From Allomyces arbusculus (Eukaryota > Blastocladiomycota > Blastocladiomycetes > Blastocladiales > Blastocladiaceae): a DNA stretch of 64,000 bases. Positions 25,883-44,382 of the stretch are shown here, in pieces; the stretch's first letter is position 1, and the number at the start of each line of letters is the position of its first letter. The translations under genes and the position numbers were made by a program. The DNA is taken from assembly GCA_027604705.1 (NCBI GenBank), contig JADHYV010000016.1, positions 186,001 to 250,000 on the forward strand, written 5' to 3'. The notes under the pieces are model-generated. The model worked only from the letters and a program-made list of their open reading frames with translations, ran no database searches and was not told where the DNA came from.

Positions 25883-28838
25883 TCACATGCTGTTGCCCAT
25901 CCGCGAGGCCGGCTTGGATCCGTTCCCCGCCGTCTCGTCCTCCTCCTCCGTCTTCTCCACCTCCCCCTCCACCTTGGGCTTCTCGTGCTCGTGCCAGTTC
26001 AAGAACGCGCCATGGAACCCAAACGGCACGACCGCACCCGGGTCCAACGACGCGCGCGCACGTTCGGTAAACGTCTTGGCGTCCAAGACGAGCAAAAAAC
26101 TCGTCGACCGGAACCCGTCCAACACCACACTCAGCACAACCCCATCGTCCTCGATTCCCGCCACATACCCGCCACCTGCCGACTGCGCGGCCGCCGCAGG
26201 CGACGGCACGAACAAGGGCTCGCACGGGTAACACCCGTAAGCTCGCCACTCGGTCATCGCGCCCGTCTGCACGTTCGTCTTGGCTAACGAGTCAAATGGC
26301 ATCCGCGCCGTGCCCACCACCGAGTACGCGTACTGGTACTGCGGGCACATCACGGCGAACGGACTGATCACGGGCAGTTCGGGCCCCGGACCCGACCGGA
26401 TCTCGAAGGTCGCGCGCGGGTAAGTCCCCGCGGTGGCCGTCGACGAGACGGACGCGTCGATCGCGGCCTCGGCGGGCGCCGACGAGTCGCGGCGCGCCCA
26501 GAGCCAGTTCCGCAGCGATCCGAGGAGCGTCGACGCGGTCCCTGCGGCGGTGCCCGCGGCCGCACACGTGCGCACGCGCGCGAGCGTGTACCGGCGCACG
26601 TAGGTGTTTTCGAAATTGGTGGTGCCGGACCGGAATTTCTCCATGTACATTTCCTGGATCGCCGAGGGCGTGCGGTAGGCGCACAGGTCGACGGTCAAGT
26701 TCACGTCGGACGATCCGTCGGCCGTCTTGACGGGTTCCTCAAACGCGTTGATCGTGTGGAAGAAGAAGAACGGGTCCGACTCGTAGGTGGCCACGTGCTT
26801 TTTCAGGCGCCGGTCGACAACGTGGAAGTAGGTCGGCGTGTTGCCGTGCCACTCGAGCGCCGACGCGACTTGCTTGGTGAAGACGATGCCGATCCCGCCG
26901 TACGCCCAGTAGTACGGGCAACAGATCAGGATAACGTAGTTGGGCGTGAGCCCAAACGCGTGGATGTACGACGCGTGCCGCGACGGGATCGTCGCCAAGA
27001 TTTCCCCACCCTCCGGGTGGTCCTTGGACAGCGAAAACACGTGTGTGCGAATCACGGGGCCCGGTTCCTGCAAAAACTGGAAGTACTCGCCCGTGATCGG
27101 GTCGTATTGCTCGTGCGCCGACGACATGATCCCCCGGAACGCCGGGTTGATATCCGTGTAGGTCATGTACCCGCGCGACTCGAGCGTTGTTTCGTCGAGC
27201 TCTTGCAGAATGTTGGCGTCGGTCTTGGCGAGTAGGATCGGGCGCGTCGTCGGCTGGCCGGGCGGGACGTCGGGACCGAGAAACAGCGGGAACCGCGGGG
27301 TCACGGCGACGTTGACGTTGAATTCCTTGGGCACGTCGAGCGTCGCCTGGAAGAACTTCTTGAAGAACGTGTCAGTAGGACTTTGCGATTGAGCTAGAAA
27401 ACGAGCGAGTGGTGCCGGCGATCAGTTTGCATCCCAAGGTTCTGGCCATGCGTCGTGCATTAAAAAAAAGGACGTACCAAAAGTCAGCGGCAGCGTGCCA
27501 GTCTCCTTCATAGTCTTTTCCTGCGTCTCGGACGTGAACCGGTTGCGGTAGTAGACCTTGCCCTTTTCAACCTCGAACCGGTGCATCAGACTGAAGCCGT
27601 CAAACCAGTGATCGATCTCGACGACCTTGTGCGCGCCCGAGTCTTCCTGCTGCAACTCGGTCTCGACCTGGAACTTGCCCGGGCCGCAGCTATTTTCGTC
27701 CACACGCCGTCAACTCGTGAATTTGACATCCCAGCGTCGCTGCCCACACTCTCCACCCACTCGCGCACTCGAAAACAACAAAAACAGAAAACCGTACCGA
27801 TAGAACACGCCCGAAACCCAGTCTGGGATCTTTCCATCAATGCTCAACTCCTTGGGCGACTGCACCTCGTCGCAGTTGCTGAACCCGAGCAAGTAACCCT
27901 CCGGGAACTCGGCCGCCGACTCGAACGACTCGATACTCACACCAATATCGGGCTCCGAGATCTCGCCCAATGGATCCGCCACGGTCATGCCCGGCGCACG
28001 GAACGCCGACATACGGCGTCCGCCCGCTGCGGCGCCGGCCTGCACGTAGGTCTGCGACTGCGAGCTGCGGCGCCGAATCTTGTCGGTTCTCGACCGTTTC
28101 GCGTCGTCGAGCGATTCCATGACAACGACACCGTTCTTGACAAGCACCGACGCGCGCCGGCCGGTCGTGGCCGCGGACATCATTGCGGCGCCGGCGAAAC
28201 CGAGGGTCGGAATGCCCGGATGCGCCATGGAGATGCGGCGCGAGGAGCGGCGCGCGGGGTCTGGAAAGGGGGTGCGGAGGCGGAATTGGAAGGGGGGCGT
28301 TAGCGAGTAGCGATGGACGTGTGGCACGGCCGCGATTTGGACGTGACGCGCATACCATTCTTCCTAGAGTGCACGATCGGAACAAGGCGTTAGAATGCGT
28401 TCCACCGATTTGATCAGGACACGGCCGCACAGCATACTTTGCACCCGAAAAGTTGTTGGCCGACGAATCCCCGCTCCCCGACGCCTGCTGCTTCTCATCG
28501 GGCACGACCAGACGCGGCGGAACGAGCGACATGCGGCGCAGCGCCTGCTTGAGGCTCAGCGTCGACGCGCTCTCGGGGAGCGCGCCCTGCACTGCGGGCT
28601 TGACGGGACCGGTCGCATCTTGCCGGAACCCGGCCGAGTTGGTGAGTGTGTTGTCGAGCGACGACGTGGCCGGCGCCGCCACCGGGGCTTGGCCGTCCTC
28701 CTCGGGCACCTCGAGCAAGGACTCGCCGGACGTGCGCGTCGGCGCTTCGGCTTCGACCGCCTCGGTCTCGGGAATGCTCGTGATCTGGTAGCTTTCGCGC
28801 CGGAACGGGCTTTTCGCGCGGTTGCTGGCGGTCGCCAT
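25883..28838 (-). CDS. carotenoid cleavage oxygenase (RPE65/CCD family)
   Basis: Four exons are proposed: 28838-28445, 28359-27798, 27689-27478 and 27393-25883 (892 residues). The catalytic region starts with GKIPDWVSGVFYRCGPGKFQV and HWFDGFSLMHRF. All four iron-ligand histidines are present in family context: SSAHEQYDPITGE, YIHAFGLTPNY, FFFHTINAFEE and VPFGFHGAF. Such enzymes cleave carotenoids oxidatively, for example to retinal or apocarotenals, using Fe(II). The N-terminal 300 residues are Ser/Ala/Arg-rich, not part of the enzyme fold and possibly a targeting or regulatory region. The weakest join is exon 1 to 2 (GTGCAA donor, GGAAG acceptor); exon 1 might belong to a separate transcript, with translation starting near 28229 (MAHPGIPTLGF). 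The other joins restore conserved residues in frame. Confidence 0.87.
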
Positions 28839-30059
28839 GGTGGAGATGCGTGTGCGTCGCCGAGGTTAGAGGGTTCAAAGAGAAAATGGGACAGAGCGGG
28901 CGTAGATCGCGCAGGGCAAGCGACCCGAGGTCCTATCCCGTCGTGATCGCGGCGGTCCAACAACCCGTGTCGCTTGGCCAACGCCGTGTTTGTGCGATCA
29001 GGAACGGCCTCGGTGACGGAAGAAATCATGCGGCGTCAGCGACAACGAGCAGCTGGAAAAGGTTCGCGCGCGGGGTGGTCCAGGGGGTGCGCGCGGAGCT
29101 GAGCCGGGGCTCCCCCTGGTCTCCAGCGCGGGGCCACGGCAGTTCTTGAGCTCGACTTGGCGGTTGTGAGCACAACACGGCCAATGACGGAGAATGACGG
29201 GTCTCGGCCATCATGGACAGGATTGCAGCAAGTCGGAGCATTCGTCAGGAATCCTCTTGTGTATCCTGCAGCAGAATATCGATGCTGTTATTTCCTCCAG
29301 ACCAGACCAGTCCAAGAGCTTGGCGGTGTGACTCAGAAGTATGAAATGTGTATGTACCATCATGGTCTTGCCTGAGAAACGCTACTGGCAGCAGCGCCAG
29401 TACGAAGAATCAGGTCACTGTTCACTCATCACATCGACACCATGCGCGGGAAGGGCCATGACCAAGAGGCATTTGTGACCAAGAAGCATTTGTGACCAAG
29501 AAGCACGAAATGGTCAACTGTTACTTGTCAGCCATGATGGACTTGGGGAGGCTGCGAGCGTGGGGAGGAGGACAGTGACATGTTGGCGTCATGTCACAGT
29601 CACATTTGCCGGTCAGTTTGGCGTAATGCTTGACGGCTGCGCGCTTCAACAGGCATGAACAGCGCTCGTGCAACAATGGTCAATAGATTTTCGTCTGCGG
29701 CGTGGAGCGCGTGTACAACCCAAGGGACCTGATGGTGGTGCTGAAACGAGACACCAGTGACGGCAAGAATAGATGGCGAAGGACTACATCGAGATATAGA
29801 ATTCACACAAGGAGAACTAACGGAAGCGGGCGAAGAAAAGGGGAAAAGAGGGGTGCGGTGGATCAGGTCGACACAGATGTGGGCGCCAAGGACTAGACGC
29901 AACCAGAGACCGACATGAAGCAAATCGAGGGACCAATTATTGATGGTGAGAGGAATTTTATGGCTACGTGCCATTTCAAGCTGACCACCGGCACTCAGCT
30001 CTGCAGGAGCCACCAGGTCAGGCGCACCCCCGAGGCGGGCCATTACCACAGGAAAGCAA
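28839..30059. other. intergenic
   Basis: About 1.2 kb between two minus-strand genes, with somewhat lower GC than the flanks in its middle. It contains a small tandem repeat (listed separately). Open frames here are mostly mirrors of the neighbouring gene. No RNA gene or transposon ends were recognised. Confidence 0.45.
29459..29505. repeat. 17-bp minisatellite, nearly three copies
   Basis: The unit TGACCAAGAAGCATTTG is repeated head to tail: copy 1 differs at one base, copy 2 is exact, and copy 3 diverges after 13 bases. It lies in noncoding DNA. Confidence 0.85.
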
Positions 30060-31947
30060 TCACCAGGGCTCATCATCGCAAGGGCCGCCGCCCCAGCCGC
30101 ACCCACCGCAATAGTTGTTGCAGCCGGGGTCGCTCCACCAGCAGGCAGCAACGTTCTGGTGCTCATGCGTTTCCGAGCTAACGCCCATGAACGCGGTTGT
30201 CGCCTTGTACTTGGCGCCCGTCGTGCACGACACGTTAAGTTGGTAGTAGTCCTCGCTGTAGAGGTCCATCCACAGCGCCGGCATGGCCTTGGTGCCAGTG
30301 GCGATCCGCGCCTCCGAAATTTCGTCGTCCGAGTCGTTGTGGTTGACGACGTGGCCAACGATCGCGCACGTCTGCATGGTGTAGGCCATGGGGCTCAGCT
30401 GGTGCGTGTGCCACGCCAAATCAATCGCCATCGTCGGCACAAACGTGGTCTTGGGGCGCGTCGCGACCATGGCCGCGAGGAACTTGGGGTACTGTGCGAG
30501 CGCAGTCGTGTTGTGGTGGTAGACAGCGTGCAGACCGGCCGAAACGACCTTGGCGATCTTGGCCGAGAAGCGGCGCTGCCGACGCACCGCGCGAATCATG
30601 TCCATGGACCACGGACCCGTCGTCACATCGCGGTGCGCGTGAAGAACCATGCCTAAACGGCGCTTGTTGCCAGGCAGCACGAGCTTGTCGGCGGCCGCGG
30701 CCATGACGGGCTCAAACACGAGCGTCTGGATGTCGGACCAGGTGGAGAGAGTAGGGAGCGCGTTGGCGTGCTTGGCCCACGTCGTCTTGTCAAACAGCGC
30801 GGCAACATCGGCCATGTTGACGTGCTCCTTGCCGACAAGCATGCGCGTCTTCGGATGTGTTTGCGTGCCGGCGATCCGAGCGAGCGGCGCGCAAGCAGCG
30901 ACCATCAAGAAACGGCGCACAGCCACATGCTCGGCCGTAAACGCGGCGTTGCACGACGTGCACGAGTGCGCCTGCGCGTGCAGACGGAACGACGCGTACT
31001 CGGCCATGGTCATGGCCTGCTCGTTCTTGCACGATGGGCACTGGACCTTGTCGGTGACCTTGGCCTCGTCGATCGTCGCGGGGGTCAGGTCAAACGGCTG
31101 GTCGGCGGGCATGTGCGCCGCCCAGAACTCGCGCGCCGTGTCGAGGTCCGTGAGGTCGCCCATGAGCGTCTTGGCCTGGTGGAAAGGGAGAGCGTCGAGA
31201 AAGTGTCAGAATTGTGAGCAAATATGGCGACAATGACGACAGCAGCGATATTTTGAATTTTACGAACCAAGCGGAGCAGCGGGAAGTTGATGCGCACAAC
31301 AGTGCGGCCATAACGACGCTGCATGTCCTCGACGTAGCGGATCGGGCTCAGCTAATAATGATTACAAAAGTAACGAAATCAGGAAATGCATCTGACCGTA
31401 GATCTTTCTCGAGGAGAGCCTTCGAAGTACCATGTGCGAGTGCCAAAACATGGCCACGTCAAGCGGCGGGAGCGGTGGGTTCTCAACAATCGACGCGTCC
31501 TTGGACACGGCTTGGGCAAGCGCGTCCATGAATGCAAGGTAGCGCGCCTCCGAGCAGCAGAGAAGGGCGCTGGACCATTAAAAGTCAGAAGTCAATGGCC
31601 ATTCTGTCACGAGCGACACATCCAACGTACAGATCCTTGGCCTCGTCCTCATGTCGCATTTGATGGTGAAACGCGGCAAGAAGAAACATGTGCGCCATCA
31701 AGCTGTCGCGGGAAACCAAATCCTTGGTGCGCTCGCCAATCAATTCGACGAGCTTGGTCAGTGCGACCTCGTCGACCTTGTCCTCATTTTGCGCAGCTTG
31801 CACGATCAACGCGTGGGCAGCGAGCGCGACGTCGGTAGGCGTCGAGTCAGCGAGCTGTACGTTATCCACGGTACCATCGACCAATGCCAGGGGCGGGACG
31901 AGGACAGCTTCGATAGGAAGAGCCGTGGCGACAGCGGCGGTCGACAT
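30060..31947 (-). CDS. GRDP-like (DUF1399) protein, intact copy
   Basis: Four exons: 31947-31631, 31569-31431, 31351-31268 and 31175-30060, coding 551 residues. Splicing joins FWHSHM to LSPIRYVEDMQRRYGR, giving the first WHxH-LSP motif (residues 148-151), and AIDLAWHTHQLSP gives the second at 435-438. These paired motifs and the Cys/Gly-rich end (NYCGGCGWGGGPC) are typical of plant and fungal glycine-rich-domain-like proteins of the DUF1399 family. Between them is a CPSC ... CTSC zinc-ribbon-like set (about 226-255). Biochemical function is not established; plant members are linked to stress and development. A TATAAAG lies about 85 bp upstream of the ATG. A truncated duplicate lies at 36.6-37.9 kb. 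Confidence 0.82.
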
Positions 31948-32030
31948 CTTGGTGCTTGATGGCGAGGTGGTCGAGCGCTTTGCTGGTCGTCGTTGCCGGG
32001 AGAGATGGAATCGTTAGCGACGTAGCATCC

Positions 32031-32037
32031 CTTTATA
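32031..32037 (-). promoter_or_regulatory. TATA box of the GRDP-like gene
   Basis: TATAAAG on the minus strand about 85 bp upstream of the start codon at 31947. The corresponding place in the truncated copy (about 37957-37964) reads GATAAAT, so the element appears weakened there. Confidence 0.5.
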
Positions 32038-32049
32038 GCATTCGTTCAT

Positions 32050-33009
32050 GGAAAATAGAACATTGAAGACTCGCGTCGTGGGTGTGCTTCGTGTTGCCCA
32101 AACGGCAAACGCGCGCTTGAGCGTCGCGAGGTGCCATCAGAGCCACTTCTTGCCGATCAGGGAGAGGAACAGGACCACTTCCACCGGCTTCCACTGTGCG
32201 TGCCTTTTGTCTCCTCTGCAATGTGGACCAATATTTGTGAGATCTGTATTTCGGGCACAACATTCTTATTATTTGGGCTGTCTTTGAATCCGTAGCTGGA
32301 AGCCAGGGCCCCTGACAACGAGTGAACCATTGAACGGTTCACTCGTCTGATTTTGTCTGGACGGCGACACGCAGGGGTTCTATGGAATCCCTACACGTCA
32401 CAAGCTTGACCGTCTTGACTCTCTTCCGGTGTTCATATTTATGACCGACCTGCCCGCTGACGTGCAAATGGTGACGATGAGGATCGTTCTGGTTGTGAAC
32501 ACCAAGTGACCGTCATTGCAACATAAGGGCTCCGCGTGGTTGAATTATAGAACATGATTCGGCGAACAGCGAGCCGCTGATGGCGGCTATGCTCAAAATT
32601 TGCTCGCTTCACACGGCACGATCGCATGCAATAGTATTACCCATGAGGAAGGAATCACCACCTCGCTCGCTGAGCTTTCAAGCTCAGACAAATCAATAAG
32701 CGTGAAAGAAGGCATGGGAGACAGACTGCGGCCTGTCAGCCATGCTTATCCGACGCGCGACAGTCTCGACGTACTGGTTATTCAACTTCATTAGCTCTGG
32801 CGCGTTGCTGCACGTTGGAGCTCGTCGCCACGGCACCAACCTGTCGATACAGCGGCCCAAGCTGCATCACTATTTAAGTTGTTAGGGGGGAAATAGAAGG
32901 CAACAGCACCGCAAGACAGGTTCAAGCGACGTAAGGACCGCATCTGCTGTAAATACACAAACATGACGGCCATCCAGCCACAAAACACCAATTTACCATA
33001 AAAAACGGC
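32050..33009. other. intergenic, less GC-rich, origin unclear
   Basis: About 950 bp between the promoter of the intact GRDP-like gene and the FMT remnant. It is richer in A and T than the coding DNA around it, with only short frames. The equivalent interval in the right copy is about 350 bp, so this may contain later inserted DNA. I found no inverted or direct terminal repeats. Confidence 0.4.
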
Positions 33010-33696
33010 TCAGTTTTTATCATTCTTGGCCCGCCACGGCCATTGACGAAAATCGCGCGCACCCTGCTCCTTGCGGCTCAAAGGCTTCACCCGCGTGACG
33101 CCGATCGTTTGGCCATCGGCACAGTGCACACGCAGGTGCGGCTCGGGCTCGAGCACGAGCTCGAAACGACCGGGTGGGAGAACCGTGGTGGTCGTTTTGG
33201 GTGCGCGCAATGCACTGAGGTAAAGTTTCACTCGCTTGACGCCAACGATGGTGCGCATCAGGACCTGGGAGTTGAGCGCGAAGGTGGTGGTGGCCAGCAA
33301 CAGCACGGCAATGTCAAACAGAAAAAATGCCTGGTCGTTGCTCCAAATCGCGTGCTGGATGGGCGCGGCGCCGCGGTATTTTGGCAAACGCGACGGGTGT
33401 AAGTTCATGGCGCCGCTTGGGAACAAGTCGAGAATGTGCGGCAGAACCAAAAAGGAGCACGACACCACGACGGCCAGGTCAGTCTTTTCGGCGATGTTCA
33501 ACGGCATTTATGTGCGGAAAACGAGCCGATATTTTTTTGCCAGGTGACGTATCGAGTGGGAGAAGGTCGCGAACATACTTCGCAACGCTTCAGGGACCGC
33601 ACGGGCGCGTGGAACACTTTGAGATCGTGAGCGCGTGCGTACTGCGAGAGCGCGTCTGTCGGTCATGGAGATCCAGCGTTCTCCGCTCATGCGTGA
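33010..33696 (-). pseudogene. truncated methionyl-tRNA formyltransferase copy
   Basis: This matches the intact FMT gene at 38329-39836 but lacks exon 1. It begins within exon 2, whose protein sequence is degraded, keeps the first third of exon 3 (LNIAEKTDLAVVVSC ... AMNLHPSRLPKYRGAAPIQHAIW) and then jumps into what is intron 4 of the intact gene, running on into exon 5 (RTIVGVKRVKLYLS ...). The internal deletion removes the active-site Asp region and all of exon 4. The deletion happens to keep a 165-codon frame open (33507-33010). There is no mitochondrial targeting exon, and an active enzyme is not possible. Confidence 0.82.
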
Positions 33697-33823
33697 ATAA
33701 ACAGGTGACCAAACTGTATTTGCTCTGTAACGCATGTTGAACGTTTCTACTTTGCTACACATACAACAAATGACCCCCATGCGACAAAGAAAGACATGGT
33801 GGCGGTTTCAGGCCTTGGACGTA

Positions 33824-36291
33824 TCACTCGGCCTTGCCCATGCCCTTGAGCATGTCCACGACCAGTTCGCGGGCATCGCGGAGCAATTTGTTTGCCCTAG
33901 GTCACAGAAATGTAACGCCCGGGTGATCAGTTCAGGTGGACAGGGTCGAGTACGAGTATCTCTGGCACAGCGCTACACGCACCGTTTGGTTGCGCGGAAC
34001 TGCTTCAATATAGACGACCCACCGTCCAGATGGTCATGCGACGGCAACGCCTTGGCGACCGCGGTCACAATCTGCATGGTGAGCTTCTGCTGCGCCTTGG
34101 CGTCCGTGAACACGGCCGTGGACCTCGGCACAACGGCGGCGCACGGCAATGGATCCTCTGCCTCCATGCTGCCAGCGCGGCAGATCGGCACCACGACCGC
34201 ATCGAGCACGCCATCGACCGTGAGAATCTCGGCCTCGACTTCGGACAGGACAACCTAGGTGGCCAGCGAGAGTGCAACGAGAGTTGACCATCAGTATCGA
34301 ATCGAGATCAGCCCAGATAACGAAACCAGGCCAGCGCGTGTCCTACGTACGTGGTTCCCCATGCGCACGAACTTTTCGTGGATCCCATCCAGGCACGTCA
34401 TGCACCCGTCGGCGTCAATCTGAACCACATCGCGCATTTGGTACCACGGGCGCCCACCGATCCAGATAAACGCGGCCTTAGTCTCCTCGGGGCGGTTGAA
34501 GTAGCCCGTCGTATTGGACATGACGCAGGGGCCGAGCACGACCAGCTCACCAGGACCCGTCACGCCGTTTGGGTTGATCGGAATCGGTGTCTGCGTCGCC
34601 AAGTCGAGAAGTAGCGCCTCGTTGCCCGGCTTGAGCCACCCAGCCACACCCGGCCGGAGCGGAGATGAGCCGCCAAAGTGCGGCAGGGCGATCGAGAGTG
34701 CTTCTGTGGAGCCGTATGACTGGATAACGCCGGCTAAAGACGAGGAACGACCATTCAGTTAGTTGGTGTGAAACCACGATTAACAAACGACGAGAGGAGG
34801 TGAACGCACGTACCCTTGAACAGCTTCATGGCCTGCATCTGCAGCGTCTTGGACAGCGCCGCCGACACCGTAATAATGAGCTTGAGCGACGACAGGTTGC
34901 ATTCTTTGGTGCGCGGGTCCTTCATGATCGCGACGAGATTGGGCGGCCACATGAGCGAGACGGTGATCTGGAACCGCTTCGAGCCATCCACCCGTGGTAA
35001 AGTGGTCGAAAAAGTAGATCGGGCAGCTGCGGTTCGCCGCGTTGATGCATAAAAACTTGCCGGACGCGTGGAAAAAGCTCAAGGCGCCGTCGTACCGCGT
35101 TGTAGCGCCAGTGGACGTTGCGGCCTTGCTGGTGTTGATCGGACGCGCAGCCGACGCAGCCAATGCAGTCGACGCAAGTTTCAGGGCGGGGAACCGCATC
35201 ATGGTGGCCCGAAGCATATGATGCGTCATCTGCACCGCCTTGGTGGAGCCCGTCGTGCCGCTAATGAATAGATTGCAGAGATAAAATTTGGATGATCAGT
35301 CGCGTCTGAAACAAGGGCAAAGCAGGGAGGGAGGGACGGAGGGACTCAACCGCACGTACGACGTGAACATGAGGTAGACTGTCTCATCGAGCTGCACTTG
35401 AGCGATGGTCGACGGCAGCTCGACCTGGCCCGGAACCATCAAGTCGTGCATCAGCAGCACGTTGTTCGTGATGGCCGCCAATTGCGGCGTCGTCGGCGAG
35501 TCGAGCAGGATCACGCGCGGTTCGTGCGTCAGCTTGGCCAGATCGATTACCTATAGATTAATAATTGTTGTGGGACGAGCGAGACAGCCGACAGGTTTAG
35601 TAAATGGAAGTCATGCAACCAGACACATCAGGGCAGCAAAGCAACGTACGCCGCGCGCGGTCTGGTACAACGACGAGTGGACAATCATGGCGTGCGGCTG
35701 CGTCTCCAAGAGCCAGTGCGCGGTTCCCTGGACCGTGGTCTGTGGGTTCAGCGCCGCGACGGTAATACCTGTTGTTGCGTGAACCGGTAAATAAAATGAT
35801 GAATGAGAACTGTTGATCATGTGTGCTGGTGCCTCGTCATATCGCAACAACATGGCAGTGGCAGCAGCAACAACTCGACCATGTCAGGCGCGACCAGAGG
35901 AGAACCTCACCCGCAAACAAGCACGCAAAGTCGGCAACGAAGTAGTGCTCATGGTTGGGCGAGAGAATCCGAGACAATCGCCGTTCCTCAGTCCAATCTT
36001 GTCGACCAACCCGTGCGAAAGTCCCAGAGCGTGCTGGAACAGCTCGCCGTACGTCAAGCGACGATGGTCCGGGTCTTCGGTGTGCGCCATGAATAGCGAC
36101 TCTGGATCATGCGTGCGGAGTCGCTCAAAGAGATGACGACCAACTGGGATGCTGAGCGGAAATTGCACGGCGCTCTCCGGGATGCGCGAGCGGATCACAC
36201 AGCGATCAAGGTCTTGGCCATTCGTCGTGATGGTCGTGGTCGCGGGGGTCGCCGTCGTGGTCGCCGTTGGCATCGTGTCGACTTGCGCCAT
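33824..36291 (-). pseudogene. AMP-dependent acyl ligase/synthetase gene, frameshifted
   Basis: This resembles 4-coumarate-CoA-ligase-type adenylating enzymes, in about seven exons. Recognisable parts are RRLTYGELFQHALGL, SPNHEHYFVADFACLFAG, the P-loop YLMFTSGTTGSTK formed by a splice, FFHASG, RFQITVSLMWPPNL, IQSYGSTEA, YFNRPEETKAAF and a C-terminal VVLSEVEAEIL domain. Two places need a one-base change of frame with no possible intron: near 36.0 kb (between GLRNGD and SPNHEHYF) and near 34.98 kb (between FFDHFTT and RFQITV). Motifs are also eroded: the usual TGD reads MRD, and the end-of-domain Lys motif (usually x-G-K) reads ANK. It is therefore probably a decaying gene, unless the two shifts are sequence errors. 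It sits exactly at the junction of the two duplicated copies. Confidence 0.7.
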
Positions 36292-36621
36292 GGTGCTGAT
36301 GCCCGTCTTGAGTGATGTTGCTGATTCCCGTCTTGGCCATGCGTTGCTGGGGAGATGGGACCGAGACGGGTGGGCTGTGTCGCGATATGGGCGGATTGTC
36401 GCCGTCTGTTGGCTGTGGCTCTATCCCGATGTTGGCGATGTCGAGGGTGACAGGAGCAGGAAGCATTTGACATTCTTCTCCTTCTGAAGAAGAAAAGTGA
36501 AAGCCCAGAAGCGAGGTTTTCGGCCAAGGGTTTCGCAACAACTTTTCGCCTCACACTCACACGGCAAACACTCACAAACAGAGACAAAATAAAGAAATAC
36601 AAAATGCGTGGAAGGAAAACG

Positions 36622-37872
36622 ACAAACGGCGCTTCAAGTCGTCGCGTGGCAGCTCGTGGACATGCCTGGACATGCCGCTGTGGGCTCGAACAGGAGCGTC
36701 TGGATGTCGGACCTGGGGAGAGCGCAGGGAGCGTGGCAACGTGCTTGGCCCAGGTCGTCTTGTTGAACAGCATGGCAACGTCGGCCCTGTGGGCGTGCTG
36801 CTTGCCGAAAATCGTGCGCGTCTTTGGGTGCGTTTGCGTGCCGGCTGTCTGAGCGAGTGGCGTGTGCGCAGCAATCGTCAAGAAACGACGCACGTCCACA
36901 TCCATAAACGCGGCGTGGCAAGACGCAGTGCGCGTGCGCGTGCAGACAGAACGACGCGTACTCGGTCATGCATGGCCTGCTCGTTCTTGCACGACGGGCA
37001 CTGGACCTTGCCGGTGACCTTGGTCTCGTCGATTGCTGCGGGCGTCGGGCCCAATGGCTGATTGGTGGGCATGTGCGCCGCCCAGAACTCGCGCGCCGCC
37101 TCGAGGTCGGCGTGGTCGTCCATGTGCGCCTTGACTTAGTGGAGGAGGACGATCAGGAGTATCAGCTTTGGCAACGATGATGGATGAGCGCAGCGATGAC
37201 TTGGATGAACGAACCAAGCAGAGGAGCGGGACGTTGATGCGCACAAACGTGCGGCCGTAACGACGCTGCATATTTTCGGCGTAGCGGGTCGGGCTTCGCT
37301 ACGTATCATCGACAGAAATGTTAGGGAGTGCTTTTGACTCGAGAAGACGCTGTCCATCCACACCATGTGCGAGTGCCAAAACATGGCCACATCAAGCGGC
37401 GGGAACGGTGGGTTTTCCACAATCGATGTGTCATTGGCCACGACCTGGGCAAGCGCGTCCATGAGCGCAAGATAACGCCGAGCCGCAGAAGAAAGAGCTG
37501 GTGCATCAAATGTCAGCGGCGAGGAAATGGCCGTGTAACCACAGCAGCGAGAAGCAGCCAACGCTCAGGTTCTTGGCCTCGCTCTCAAGGCACTGCAGCT
37601 GATGGTAGAACGCGGCTAGAAGAAGCGCGTGCGCCATCAAAATGTCGCGCGACAACAAGTCCTCCGTGCCCTCGCCAATCCCCAACAATCTTGGCAAGCG
37701 CAACCGTGCCAAATTGGTCCCTATTCTGCGCCGCTTGCACGATCGCTGCATGGGCAGCGAATACGGTCTCGTTGGGCGTCTTCTTGGAGAGCACATCGTT
37801 GACGACATCATCGGCCAATGCTTGGGGCGGCACGGGAACGGTGGGCAGAAAGGCGGCAATGGCGACAGACAT
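36622..37872 (-). pseudogene. truncated GRDP-like (DUF1399) copy
   Basis: Homologous to the intact gene at 30060-31947. It keeps the start (MSVAIAAFLPTVPVPPQALA), the first FWHSHM motif, the RRYGRTFVRINVPLL exon and EAREFWAAHMP through the zinc-ribbon region and KTTWAKH. It ends at RRLEAPF, the point equal to about 30653 in the intact gene. The second WHTH motif and the glycine/cysteine tail are missing. Reading frame changes in exon 1 (after ALAKIV) and after KNEQAM, and the splice after FWHSHM no longer restores the LSP motif. It is a pseudogene. Confidence 0.82.
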
Positions 37873-39432
37873 TTTTTTGCTGTTCGTTCTTGGCGGCGAG
37901 GCACCCAAACGTGTTGCTCGTCACTCGAGAGAGATGGGAGGATTGTCCGTGAGAAGCGTTCCATTTATCCCCATCCTCTCCATGGAAAAGGGAACAGTCC
38001 TTAGTGGTGGCCGATGCGCGTGTCGTGGGAGCGCAACCAGTTAGTTGCCCTCGCCGTCTTCGGGTGGCCGAGTGCAACGACTGCAAGGAATTACGTGAAG
38101 CGGTTCCTCCAACACGTGCAGGCGCGTACAGAATGTGCGGAAATCCCTTATAAAACGGCTCCGGCACGAGATGCTGTTGGAACGCGTTGGAATGGGTTGA
38201 TGGTGGATGGTGGGCCGCTGATGGTCGGTGCCCAAACGATACATATTACATGGCAGCTTCTTTGCGCAAAACGCACTGCCCATTGCTCGCTGATACTTTG
38301 CACAACGACTGCAGTATCCGAATCAAAATTACCCAAAAAACGGCTTCGTTTTCATCAATCCGGGCCCACCACGGCCATTGACAAAATCGCGCGCCCCCTG
38401 CTCCTTGCGGCTCACCGGTTTCACTCGCGTGACGCCGATCGTTTGGCCATCGGCACAGTGCACCCGCAGTTGCGGCTCGGGTTCCAGCACGAGCTCGAAC
38501 CGACCGGGCGGGAGAACCGTTGCAGGCGTTTCGGGTGCGCGGAATCCGCTAAGGTGAAGCTCCACCCGCTTGACGCCAAAGACGGTGCGCATCGGGACCT
38601 AGGAATCAAGCGCGAAGGTAGTGGGAGTCAGCAACGGCACAACGGTCGGTCGCAAAGCGAAAACGAAAGAGACGGGTGAGTGCGCGTACCTGGTGCCCAA
38701 TGGCTCGCCACCGGTTCCACACCTCTGTCGCCGACACCTCGTCCCAAAAAATGATGCCGTCCTCCTTGGTAATCTTGCGCGCGCGCGTAACCTGCTTTTC
38801 GTCCTGGATTTTGGCGTTCTCCTATGCGCGCAAATCAGAACAAGGTCAGGCAGGGATGCGGCTGGGCACGGCACCTGACGGCGCGTACAGCTGCTTGCTT
38901 GAAGTTGCAAATCACGTCGAGGAGCAGCGCGCTGCCCTGGTCGGCCAGGAAATTCGCGAGTTCCGGGAACCGAATAGTGTTGGGGTCGGGAATGGCCACA
39001 TTTTGCTGTGCCAAAATTACGCCAGCGTCAAACCGGTTCGGGTCGAGGTCGATAATGGAAATGCCGGTTTCCTGGTCATTATTCCAAATTGCGTGCTGGA
39101 TGGGCGCGGCGCCACGGTACTTTGGCAAGAGTGACGGGTGCAGGTTCATGGCGCCGCTCGGGAACATGTCGAGAATGTGCGGCGGGATAAAGTAAGGGCA
39201 CGACACGACCACGGCCAGGTCGGTCTTTTCGGCGAGATTCAACGGCATCTATGAGCGGCGAGCGGGCCGTCAATTATTTGTCCCCAGACCGCGGACCGAG
39301 TGGATGGAGAAGATAGCTTGCATACCTCCCAACGCTTCAGGGACCGCGCGGGCGCGTGGAACACCTTGAGGTTGTGAACGCGCGCATATTGCGAGAGAGC
39401 GTCTGCCAGCCATGGAGATTCGGCATGCGTGA
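36622..39432. repeat. tandem duplication, right copy
   Basis: The partner of 30653-33696. In this copy the FMT gene is complete and the GRDP-like gene lacks its 3' third. Both copies have the same orientation and are separated by about 2.9 kb that holds the AMP-ligase pseudogene. Confidence 0.8.
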
Positions 39433-39836
39433 GTCCTATAGTCGACGCGGGCACCACGACGCAGCCATCACAGATGCACAAACACACTCTCGGACAGGTG
39501 CAGCTGGCGGCCGGCAGGGAAGCACGGCGGCGTGACGACGGCAATCTCATCAAAGGGCGGCTTCAAAATGTGATGGCCCTGCGGCGTGACGCGACCACTC
39601 TTTTTGTCGCCAATCGTGTCGACTTCGTTCGGGACCCACTCGCTGCGCATGCGCAGCAAGTTGTCGAGCACGCGGACGGAAAAGTGGTCGGAGCCGAAAT
39701 AGGTGACATGGTAGGCGCGCGTCGGCGCGTGGAGGGCTCCACGGGTCGCGCTGGTGCGGAGCGCGGAGGATCGCGCGAGGGCAGCACGCGAGCGTGGCCA
39801 AGTAGTTGCTTGCGCAATGCGGGTCCTGATCACCAT
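38329..39836 (-). CDS. FMT1: mitochondrial methionyl-tRNA formyltransferase
   Basis: Five exons (39836-39488, 39435-39326, 39248-38889, 38821-38690, 38598-38329) encode 406 residues. The N-terminus is basic with Ser/Ala and no acidic residues (MVIRTRIAQATTWPRSRAAL), as expected for mitochondrial import. The formyltransferase fold begins at YHVTYFGSDHFSVRVLDNLL. Catalytic residues are present: Asn188 and His190 in AMNLHPSLLPKYRG, and Asp227 in FDAGVIL. The C-terminal tRNA-binding domain ends with KEQGARDFVNG. The enzyme formylates initiator Met-tRNA for mitochondrial translation using 10-formyl-tetrahydrofolate. It is divergent from TOM40, with 309 bp between starts. A truncated duplicate is at 33.0-33.7 kb. 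Confidence 0.9.
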
Positions 39837-40145
39837 GGTGAGAATTGGAAATTGGCAAACTTGCTGCTCTGCGCTCAGGGATGTGGACGGTGTGGACTTC
39901 AACAAATTTGCAGAGTGGTTGGCAACGTCGCGACCAGAGCGGCTCACCCCACGTGACCGATCAACACCGATGCGAGCGGCCGACCGCCGCCAACCGCGCG
40001 TGCTGACCGACCACGACGGCGACCGCGACGACGACGATCCGCGCTGGACCACTCGCTGCAGCCGCTGCCCGCACGCTGCTGATCGCCCGCTCCCGTGCTG
40101 TCCCGCGCTCGCGCCCGCTCAACAATCCCTCGCCACACCACCACC
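39837..40145. promoter_or_regulatory. shared FMT1/TOM40 promoter region
   Basis: 309 bp between two divergent start codons, both for mitochondrial proteins. It is GC-rich, with GAC/CGA triplets near 40012-40036 and no evident TATA box. Co-regulation is inference. Confidence 0.45.
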
Positions 40146-41241
40146 ATGTCCGGCCTCCTCGGGTCCCTGACCGCCAAGTTTGACGACTTGCGCGCGGCGC
40201 TTAACCTGCCGAGCCCCGGCAAGTTTGAGGAGCTGCACCGCAAGGCGCAATTCGTCTTCACGACGCACCACATGTTCGATGGCCTCAAGGTCGACATTGG
40301 CAAGGGCATGTCGCCGACCTTCCAGGTCAACCACGCCTTCCACCTCGGGTCCCAGGCGCAGCCCAACTCCTACACGTTTGGCGCCGTCGTTGCCGAGGAC
40401 GCGCAGGTGCGTGTGTTTGCTCGGCTTGCTCGGCCGCGTCGCCGCGCCACGCTCTGCCAAGCGCGCGACCTGGCCCCGCTGCTGGACCTCCAAATCCTAA
40501 CGGCCAGCGATCACTTTCAAACAGAACATGATGCACGGCATGATCGAGACCGACGGGTCCCTGACGGGGCGCATGTCCTACGGTCTCACCAAGGCGCTGA
40601 CGGCCAAGGCCAACATCCAGTTCAGCACCGAGCAGGATCAGGCGATGCTGCAGGCCGAGGCCGACTATGCGGGCCGCGACTACGCCGCCAACCTCAAGGT
40701 CGTGAACCCGTCGCCCGTTGACGCGACGGGCATCGTCGTCGCTTCTTACCTGCAGTCGGTGACGCCCAAACTCGCGCTCGGTGTCGAGGCCGTCCTGCAG
40801 CGCCCGATCCCCGGCATCGAGGACGCCGGCATGTCGTTTGCCGCGCGGTACACGCTTCCGCGGTTCCACCTCGACGCGCTGCCGGCCATGTCGCCACAGG
40901 ACATCGTCCCGGAACAACCCACTGCCGACCCGGTGCTGACGGCCACCTACCAGTCGGCCGGCGCACTGCACCTGACGTACGTGCACCCGGTCTCGTCCAA
41001 GGTCGAGCTCGCGTCCGAGGCGCAAATGGTCGTGACGCCGCGCGGTCGTGAGGGCGTCGGTGCCATCGCCGCAAAGTACGAGTTCCGCCAGTCGACGTTC
41101 CGCACGCAGATCGACACGAACGGTCGCGTCTCGTCGGTGCTTGAGCAGCGCATGGGGCCCATGGCCTTCCTGCTCGCCGGTGAGATTGACCACGTCAAGG
41201 GTGCGGCGCGGTTCGGGTTCGGGTTGCACATGGAGATTTAA
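40146..41241 (+). CDS. TOM40: Tom40, mitochondrial outer-membrane import channel
   Basis: Two exons (40146-40406 and 40525-41241; 118-nt intron, GTGCGT donor) give 325 residues. FEELHRKAQFVFTTHHMFDG is the family's N-terminal segment that enters the barrel. The rest alternates beta strands, for example YTFGAVVAEDAQNMM, GSLTGRMSYGLTKALTAK, AEADYAGRDYAANLKVVNP and GIVVASYLQSVTPKLALGVE, ending with the membrane beta-signal-like KGAARFGFGLHMEI. Tom40 forms the protein-conducting pore of the TOM complex. Length matches fungal Tom40 without a long N-terminal extension. It is divergent from FMT1 and convergent with the KEL3-like gene. Confidence 0.92.
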
Positions 41242-41630
41242 AAGCAAATGTTGTTGGTTATCGATTTCCCGGATGGGGGCGTTTGGTGTATTTCTACGTA
41301 CGGATCGGAGAACGGCGTGGCCGAGGTCGCGGCGGCGTCCTGACGAGGAGGGAGGGAGGGGAGCGAAGCACAAGAGCGAGGGAGGGAGGGTGGGTACCTA
41401 GGGGACGTGAACCCATTTTTTTCTATAGTTTTTGAGATGAAGTTCATTGCCGCGTATCCTCTCCACCCCTTTTCCGTCTGCACGTCGCGCGACTGTGCCG
41501 TTCATTGTCATTTGAGTGAACATGCTGCTCTGTTTTGGGTGACCTGGCTGATCTTCGAATCCGACGCTCTCGTTTTGTCGTCGACCCATAGCCATTGAGT
41601 CGCGACAGAGAAAAGCAATCACATTAACAC

Positions 41631-44382
41631 TCAGCGCCGATTGCGGCTCATCATGGCCTCCTTGGCCGCTTCCTTGGCACTGCGCTCCTCGGCTGCGGCT
41701 TCTTGCAGCTCCACGTCCATTTGCCGCAGCTCCTCGAGAATCGGGAGGTACTCGGTGTACTTTTCCTTGGCGAGCTCAAACGCTACACAATAAGTCAGAA
41801 CGGACTGGTCAAGAGCCGGCAACCAATGACCTGATTCATCGAAACAGATCAGCGTACCATCGCGGCGCAACGCCTTGCCGTGTCCCATGATTTCCTCTTG
41901 CTCGAGCGCAATCTGCAGCCAGTACGCGGACGTGCGTGCATAGTAGTCGCGCAGCACCTCGTTGGGCTTGGGCAGGTTCTGCTGCAGCTCGAGCATCTAA
42001 GAACGCAGTTGAAAAGGGTGGTGAGCTTCAGTCGACTTCCAAGCCTTGTCGTGCGCGCGCGATCACAGTATTCCGTACCCGACGCATTTCCTCCTCACGG
42101 TGCTTGCGCGCCGCAGCGATCTTGGCCTCCTCCTCCTCCTGCTCGCGGCGGTACGCCTCATCCTCCTCGTCGTCCTCATCCCCATCCTCCCCATCCTCGT
42201 CATCATCATCATCATCCTCATCGTCTGATCCTTCCCACTGGCCCAAATCGCACTGCACCAAACACTTCCACTCGTCGAGCTTGTCGAGATTGAGCGCCCA
42301 AAAGTCCTCGAGCGTGTACTCGGCGCCCTCGACGTCGAGAATGCCGCCGTACAGGTACAGCGTATTGCGCGCGACGGCCATGGTCGTGTTGAACCGCGGC
42401 CGCGGCGTGTTGAGCTGTTCCTCGCGCAACCGCTCGGCTTCGGCAGCAGCCTCGGCAGCAGCAGCCGCTTCAGCAGCCGCAGCTTCCGCGGCGGCACGTG
42501 CGGCGAGCGTCTCGTCATCGACGTCCGACTCGTCATCGTCGTCGTTTTGCTGGACGGGCGTCTTGGGCTTTTTCGGCTTCTTGGGCTTTTTTTTGGCGCG
42601 CAGCGACATTGAGTACCACTTGTTCGCCTCCATGTTGTAGACGTACCTACGCGTGCGGCGCGTGGGTTAGGAATGTACGGCGGGCGAGATCGGAAGATCA
42701 AAGCTCGCGAATGGGCCACGCACATGTCGTTGTAGCACGTCGAGACCATGACTTCGTCGTTGATGTCCTCGTCGTGCACACCGCCGAATAGCACGGCCCG
42801 GTCCTTCCACATGGTCATGGTCGCGCCGGCGCGCGGTCTAAACAAGACGAGCGAGAGACACGCGTTAGGGTTCAACGGATCAGCGCGCGCGAAAACGTCG
42901 GCGGATCACACGCACCCCGGGTAGAAGCCCATCTTCTTGCGTTTCTCCCACTTGAGCGCCTTGAGGTCGGTTGACATCTTCAGCGCCCACAAGTCCGTGT
43001 GCACGACACCCTTGGTCTTTTCGCCCTTGACAAACTGCTTTGAGTAGCCGCCGTAGAGGATCACTAGTGTCCAGTCGGTGAGATCGTACTCGAGATACGC
43101 GGTTGATCTAGGCGTGCCGTACCGTGGTCCTTGTGCACCAAGAGCTGGCAGCCCGAGCGTGCAGACGGACGGTTCCCGCCAAGCTCCGGGAATTCGATCT
43201 GAAATTGCGCAATTCGATGTCAGAGTCAAGCCGCCTGGCGCAAATGTTTACGGACAGTCACGAGCGGAAACGCGGTACCTTGTGCCACTACTCGTCGCCA
43301 AGTTTCGATTGGTTGGTGAGGATTCACAATGAGGAGCCGACAACCGCAACAAGAACTGAAGAGGCACCAAACGCACCTTGTATTCCAGTGTATCAAAGAC
43401 CCACACGTCCTCCATGTACTTGGTCTGCACGTACGTGTCGTAGAACCCTGCAGTCGTCGACCCGTATCACTCTCCACCAGCTCCAACGCGCCGCCGCACC
43501 GCGACGTACCGCCAAACAAGACGACAAAGTGCTTCCACACGACCATGCGGTGCCCGGACCTTGGCGACGGCTTGACTTTGAGCTCGAGCTTCTCCCACGC
43601 GTTCGACACGACCGAGAACTGCCAAAAGTCCTTGTAGTGGTAAAAGGTCTTTTCGTTCTTGGACGCTAGTTTCACGGGGCACGAGCTAATGGTCAGTCGT
43701 GGCCTGCGACGCGGTCTTTGCTCGAAACGAAACAAAGGGAACGGACCAAACTCGCCGCCAAACAGGAACATGGTCCCGTTGGGCATGACGGCCATTTGGT
43801 GCGACGACCGCGGACCCGGGCTGTTCGGGCTCGTGATCTTCCTCCACTCGTTCTTGTCTGTGTTATACCGGTAGAGGTCGTTGTAGAACTCGGTCGTCTT
43901 GCCGTTGTGGAACTCACCGCCAAACAGGATGAGTTCGCTCGCGTTGAGCGGGTTGACGACGAGCGTTGCGTTGGCGCGGCCTGTCGGGTCGGTCATTCAT
44001 CAGAGCAATCCGGTGGAGAATGCGGGGAACGAATGGCACGAACGCGTGGGCGGCTCCGAGCACACCTCCTCGGTGATCTTGAACTCGGCCTCCTGCCGCG
44101 CCTTGAACGCATCGAGAATCGCTTCAATGTCCTCCTCCTCGCTGTCCGACTCGTCTTTGGGCTTGCCCTTCTTCTTCTTCTGCTTCTTCTCGGCCTTGAG
44201 CGCCTTGCGCTCGTTCTACGGAGCGCGGCGGAGAGCGTGCAGCCGGTTCGGGGTCAATTCGTGGCACGTCATCATGGCTCGTTGCAGCGACGTTGGAAAT
44301 CATAATCGAGTCCGATCGCCACCTTTTCGGCTACCTTGGCCTTGTGCTCGGCCTTGTTCTTTTTCTTCTTGTCCTTGGCCAT
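41631..44382 (-). CDS. Kelch-repeat protein, KEL3/KLHDC4 family with DUF4110
   Basis: About ten exons. The first encodes a lysine-rich start (MAKDKKKKNKAEHKAK). Kelch blades follow: LILFGGEFHNGK, YNDLYRYNTDKNEW, FHYKD-like blocks such as FYHYKDFWQFSVVSNAWEKL, LFGGFYDTYVQTKY formed by a splice, ARSGCQLLVHKDHVILYGGY also formed by splicing, AVLFGGVHDED and LYLYGGILDVEG. An Ala/Glu-rich helix and a long Asp/Glu stretch lie between late blades. The last exons carry the DUF4110-type end (LRDYYARTSAYWLQIAL ... KYTEYLPILEEL). This layout is that of human KLHDC4 and yeast Kel3 (YPL263C), cytoplasmic proteins of unclear function. Intron boundaries at 43.0-43.4 kb are inferred from blade continuity. 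The gene is 390 bp from the convergent TOM40. Confidence 0.83.

Follow-up and report, generated by a model that had tools for sequence, protein, structure and literature searches.

In a stretch of 64,000 nucleotides from Allomyces arbusculus (the window; contig JADHYV010000016.1, here C16, positions 186001-250000, in an assembly of 25.9 Mb and 197 contigs), a GRDP-like gene and a gene for methionyl-tRNA formyltransferase (FMT) each occur twice, once whole and once cut, and the two cut copies, here called GRDP' and FMT', have decayed differently. In the best fits of codon simulations, GRDP' has been dead for a larger share of its existence than FMT', and this contrast is our main result: GRDP' has evolved under little or no constraint since the duplication, whereas FMT' remained constrained at the protein level for some of that time. 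The duplication is old, and one event for the GRDP-FMT pair is the simple and likely reading of it. Because FMT' was constrained after the duplication, FMT was probably cut later and not by the duplication itself, its second copy having seemingly been useful for a while. The original prediction for this locus was that a single tandem duplication, with one breakpoint in GRDP exon 4 and the other in FMT exon 2, had left one whole and one truncated copy of each gene, so that no later loss needed to be assumed.

The window has a G+C content of 62% and carries genes with introns, as in a small eukaryote. Read along the minus strand, the order is whole FMT, GRDP', an AMP-binding gene, FMT' and whole GRDP, and the features of the locus are as follows.

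30060-31947, minus strand: whole GRDP-like gene, exons 31947-31631, 31569-31431, 31351-31268 and 31175-30060
32063-32989: left GRDP-FMT spacer, 927 bp
33010-33696, minus strand: FMT', decayed FMT exons 2-5 (PF00551, 42.8 bits on the remnant)
33689-33695: ATGCGTG at the cut edge of FMT'; the native FMT carries the same word at 39425-39431
33697-36603, minus strand: block separating the copies, with the AMP-binding gene at about 36298-33824 (PF00501 match on pieces)
36604-36610: ATGCGTG at the cut edge of GRDP'; the native GRDP has GCGTGA at 30637-30642
36606-37872, minus strand: GRDP', decayed GRDP exons 1-3 and the first half of exon 4 (from alignment to the left GRDP)
37997-38325: right GRDP-FMT spacer, 329 bp
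38329-39836, minus strand: whole FMT, exons 39836-39488, 39435-39326, 39248-38889, 38821-38690 and 38598-38329

According to the splice models, the left GRDP-like gene has 4 exons and 551 codons plus a stop, is free of internal stops and matches PF07173 (74.9 bits against a cut-off of 22.7), and the right FMT has 5 exons and 406 codons plus a stop, with the N-terminal domain PF00551 (83.4 bits), the C-terminal domain PF02911 (40.1 bits) and matches to the solved FMT structures 3r8x (E 7.8e-24) and 1fmt (E 1.1e-21). Outside the FMT region of the window, the sole PF00551 match found in the assembly lies on C94. Self-comparison of the whole window returned the GRDP/FMT segment pair as its only large repeat, together with one further self-match in a triplet-rich piece of 58 columns. 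The matching blocks are 30708-31900/36682-37834 (74.6%), 32990-33306/38326-38640 (85.2%) and 33330-33672/39071-39419 (80.8%), and local alignment under relaxed scoring extends them to 30637-32062/36606-37996, 32990-33306/38326-38640 and 33330-33677/39071-39424. By hand alignment the FMT edge reaches about 33696/39435, which is no more than about 3 bp from where the splice model begins exon 2 (39435). The two copies thus stand in direct order, and homology stops abruptly inside the genes. Several elements of the original prediction are borne out by these comparisons, namely the match of the two segments in order and orientation, their ends (placed at 30653/36622 and 33696/39432, correct within 16 bp) and their content, with GRDP whole and FMT lacking its 5' part on the left and the reverse on the right. 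The decay of the cut copies by internal deletion and frame changes was likewise as foreseen, FMT' showing a loss of about 400 bp and a 1-bp frame change, and GRDP' several frame-breaking gaps.

The proposed dating from intron and silent-site divergence gave both gene pairs one age. Of the fourfold-degenerate sites, 19 of 72 have diverged in the FMT pair (silent divergence, dS, 0.42) and 30 of 122 in the GRDP pair (dS 0.37). Introns, about 70% identical overall, are 68-72% identical between the copies in both genes; the similarity beats 200 shuffles in three of them (FMT intron 2 and GRDP introns 1 and 3) but only equals the best of 200 shuffles in GRDP intron 2. Since silent divergence is alike in the two genes, a single duplication of the pair is likely, and together with order and orientation it supports this part of the original prediction.

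The decay of GRDP' is that of a gene with little to preserve. The copy ends near residue 360 of 551, ahead of the best PF07173 stretch (369-446), and its exons contain 13 internal gaps in 1016 bp, 9 of which are not multiples of 3. With nine paralogues of the same genome as outgroups and 331 codons compared, the 108 amino-acid differences between the copies fall 68 to GRDP' and 20 to GRDP, with 20 left unassigned; the split is 55, 19 and 33 (n=107) with three outgroups and 42, 14 and 32 (n=88) with the copy on C40 as sole outgroup. Changes at first, second and third codon positions, again with nine outgroups, number 43/32/38 for GRDP', 24/16/31 for GRDP and 2/2/7 unassigned, and the branches of the protein tree measure 0.46 for GRDP' and 0.10 for GRDP. 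The pairwise ratio of replacement to silent rates (dN/dS) is 0.51. In the simulations, codons were evolved with one copy constrained and the other dead for a fraction f of the time since duplication; for GRDP' there were six settings (constraint 0.2 or 0.3) of 150 runs each. Death for the whole of its life (f=1) was accepted in all six (P of no more replacements than observed, 0.20-0.75), and the probability of at least as many replacements as observed was 0.038-0.558 at f=0.75 (above 0.05 in 5/6 settings), 0.012-0.253 at f=0.5 (3/6) and 0-0.057 at f=0.25. GRDP' is therefore consistent with death from birth, which is consistency and not proof given that a dead fraction of 0.5 was also accepted in three settings. 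As GRDP' shows little or no constraint, its abrupt end in exon 4 fits a gene cut at birth, in agreement with the predicted breakpoint there.

FMT', on the other hand, carries a different record. It lacks exon 1, about 400 bp are gone from exon 3 into intron 4, and its small lesions comprise an 11-bp insertion in exon 2, an altered acceptor before exon 3 and a 1-bp frame change near the 3' end; a frame of 165 codons (33507-33010 with the stop) is still open. Over 148 codons the differences by codon position are 16/7/38 and dN/dS is 0.195 (0.12 in exon 3 alone and 0.27 in exon 5 alone), and over a stricter set of 131 codons they are 13/6/34, with 32 silent and 21 replacement differences and dN/dS 0.172. 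In the corresponding simulations, FMT was constrained and FMT' dead for the fraction f, with 400 runs in each of six settings, which combined a constraint of 0.02 or 0.1 with a neutral rate of 0.13, 0.16 or 0.20 per branch (20% spread). Among runs with a silent count near the observed one, the conditional probability of so few replacements at f=1 was 0.031, 0, 0, 0.007, 0 and 0 in the six settings, and the unconditional probability 0.072, 0.01, 0, 0.05, 0.008 and 0.002. At f=0.75 the conditional values were 0.115, 0.049, 0.016, 0.06, 0.013 and 0.004. The best fit lay at f 0.25-0.5, and a copy never dead (f=0) was rejected from the other side (P 0-0.008). The simulations thus mostly reject an FMT' dead from the start, as a copy cut in a partial tandem duplication would be, and the claim that the same event also cut FMT is not supported. 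Gene conversion between FMT and FMT' as a source of the low dN/dS was dropped by argument alone: conversion should reduce silent differences as much as replacement ones.

After a simple tandem duplication GRDP' should lie directly against FMT', yet a separate block of 2.9 kb (33697-36603) stands exactly between them, so at least one further event is needed; a former joint is hinted at by the word ATGCGTG. With the evidence favouring a later loss of FMT', the claim that none need be assumed does not hold well. The block holds an AMP-binding gene with introns, which we take to be 4CL-like; of its pieces, one matches PF00501 at 31.5 bits (cut-off 29.9), another at 21 bits and a third not at all. 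Paralogues occur on C1, C4, C6, C7, C18 and C108, with identities of 60% (C1) and 63% (C108) over the whole gene, 66-75% for single-exon matches and up to 87% for short ones (54-67 bp). The gene has lost one base near 35969 relative to C1, C6 and C4, and has a frame change near 34985 relative to C108 and C1 whose exact form is not resolved; it is probably broken, unless these frame changes are assembly errors. At the ends of the block we found no terminal inverted repeats, only an inner 7-bp match taken as chance. C108 (18500-28400) also carries a broken-looking GRDP and an AMP-binding gene about 4.4 kb apart, oriented as in the window, with a presumably cyclophilin-like frame between them. 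We considered this as a related arrangement and set it aside as a probable coincidence, the C108 GRDP grouping with that of C195 and not as sister to the window copies, and a tblastn search for FMT in the loci fetched from the genome giving no match at E 0.1.

As the best explanation of the locus as a whole, we tentatively propose one duplication of the pair followed by separate fates. The segment with neighbours FMT and GRDP would have been tandemly duplicated once, as its order, orientation and like silent divergence indicate, with one breakpoint inside GRDP exon 4, so that the right GRDP copy began life truncated, or soon lost its function, and then decayed freely; the even codon-position pattern and the many frame changes argue for this early loss. 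The other breakpoint would lie upstream of FMT, the left copy being born whole. On account of its dN/dS and the simulations, FMT' would then have stayed under protein-level selection for about half to three quarters of the time since, before exon 1 and some 400 bp from the middle of the gene were lost. A second event of some kind may have replaced the 5' part of FMT' and the ground between the copies with the AMP block, itself now probably decaying; the placement of the block is observed, and its timing and mechanism are proposed here.

Several observations weigh against this sequence of events. The left and right spacers share no similarity (score 15 against a best of 20 in 200 shuffles), and copying of one continuous segment is thus not demonstrated base by base; a search for further copies of either spacer, as expected of mobile elements, found none. 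FMT' exon 2 (33 codons, kept outside the pool) has a dN/dS of 0.30, the comparable FMT' sequence is short (131-148 codons) and lacks an outgroup FMT, and its indels (3 in about 530 bp) are not obviously rarer than those of GRDP' (13 in 1016). In the mildest settings, taken unconditionally, death of FMT' from the start has P 0.05-0.07. With conditioning, 2/6 settings accept an FMT' dead fraction of 0.75 (P above 0.05), and the laxer settings still allow both copies a common dead fraction of about 0.5-0.75. Among its paralogues in the genome, none was identified as a recent donor of the AMP block. The word ATGCGTG, common to both cut edges, is a hint in favour of both cuts being one event, as if the edges had once been joined, and also fits chance: 45 of 4000 random position pairs share 7 bases with 8-bp half-windows and 134 of 4000 with 12-bp half-windows, a chance of 1-3%.

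It is also conceivable, though rather unlikely, that both genes were duplicated whole, GRDP' then being lost early, or both copies dying together in mid-life when one replacement event removed their facing ends and left the AMP block. Such a history would account for the constraint on FMT' and, through a single event, for both edges and the block between them, and the edge word ATGCGTG fits a repair joint. A dead fraction of about 0.5 is accepted for FMT' in 5/6 settings and for GRDP' in 3/6, but the even codon-position pattern of GRDP' and its better fit at f=1 point to an earlier death. Comparison of the block's flanks with FMT exon 1, the FMT-porin spacer and the 3' half of GRDP gave no similarity beyond that of shuffled sequence, which neither helps nor excludes duplication of the whole pair.

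Unlikely in our view is the course closest to the original prediction, in which a single tandem duplication broke FMT where exon 2 begins and GRDP within exon 4, leaving the two cut copies dead at birth, and the AMP block was later inserted exactly at the junction with a 7-bp target duplication. The abrupt stop of homology at both edges, the presence of ATGCGTG at both of them and of GCGTGA in both native sites, the appearance of GRDP' as dead from birth and the like silent divergence all agree with it. However, the replacement changes in FMT' are too few for a gene dead from the start, and a direct GRDP'-FMT' joint at ATGCGTG would be out of frame (read by eye from the splice-model frames), which leaves no translated fusion to account for the constraint on FMT'. 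Insertion exactly at the old junction would moreover be a coincidence. The pair of ATGCGTG words fits a once direct joint that the block later opened again, with a 7-bp target duplication, but fits chance as well. We regard it as quite improbable that the AMP block, a whole gene with introns and flanks, was inserted in this way as a unit exactly at the older duplication junction; if true, the block would represent a DNA insertion of gene size with no evident terminal inverted repeats, and would mark a fragile site. Very improbable, lastly, is that FMT' is retained and that its 165-codon frame, reading through the intron 4 remnant, makes a short protein under selection, for although the frame is open and dN/dS low, long open frames are common at 62% G+C (167 stop-to-stop frames of at least 70 codons overlap 26000-44000), and the remnant has an altered acceptor, a frame change at its end, and neither the first part of the catalytic domain nor the stretch aligned with the Asp-bearing part of bacterial FMT, a residue that presumably has a role there.

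Pseudogenisation of one copy is a familiar sequel to tandem duplication. The locus resembles it in that one of two copies has altered frames, a deletion within the gene and a lost splice acceptor, the other copy being retained, but differs in that kept and lost copies alternate sides, GRDP being kept on the left and FMT on the right. The shape of such a locus can mislead: whole and cut, then cut and whole, looks like the direct mark of one event, although the two cut genes have decayed in different ways. The pairwise test used here, in which one broken neighbour serves as control for the other, could be applied to other apparent two-gene partial duplications for which there is no outgroup genome. 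The event itself is of an ordinary kind, partial duplications, including those across two neighbouring genes, being well known. Katju 2012 (PMC3449122) quotes partial copies at 21-76% of the duplicates studied in worms and flies, with 7% for yeast, and describes duplications partly overlapping two adjacent genes, such as Sdic. As in partial tandem gene duplication of this kind, homology here ends abruptly inside one or both genes; unlike it, a block with a third gene separates the copies and one of the cut genes was seemingly cut after the duplication.

The GRDP-like family is large in this genome, with at least 31 PF07173 matches over 16 contigs, one of the 31 having a stop inside. On C65, C69 and C97, GRDP copies sit no more than about 200 bp from a contig end, as if similar copies had broken the assembly. 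In C44:28000-44500, two GRDP copies about 7 kb apart are 79.7% identical, the right one having lost about 310 bp inside exon 4, and upstream there is a separate GRDP fragment (residues 365-437). The right copy seemed at first to be cut at residue 374, as at a recurrent GRDP breakpoint; its 3' end is in fact still present beyond the internal deletion. On the minus strand, C28:74217-89783 holds a stop-free frame of 5710 codons with 8 PF07173 matches and C39:144724-152688 one of 3618 codons with 3 matches, and these frames possibly encode giant proteins with many GRDP-like domains. Directly to the right of FMT in the window, on the plus strand, lies a porin gene (PF01459 within 40501-41241), with a start read by eye near 40146.

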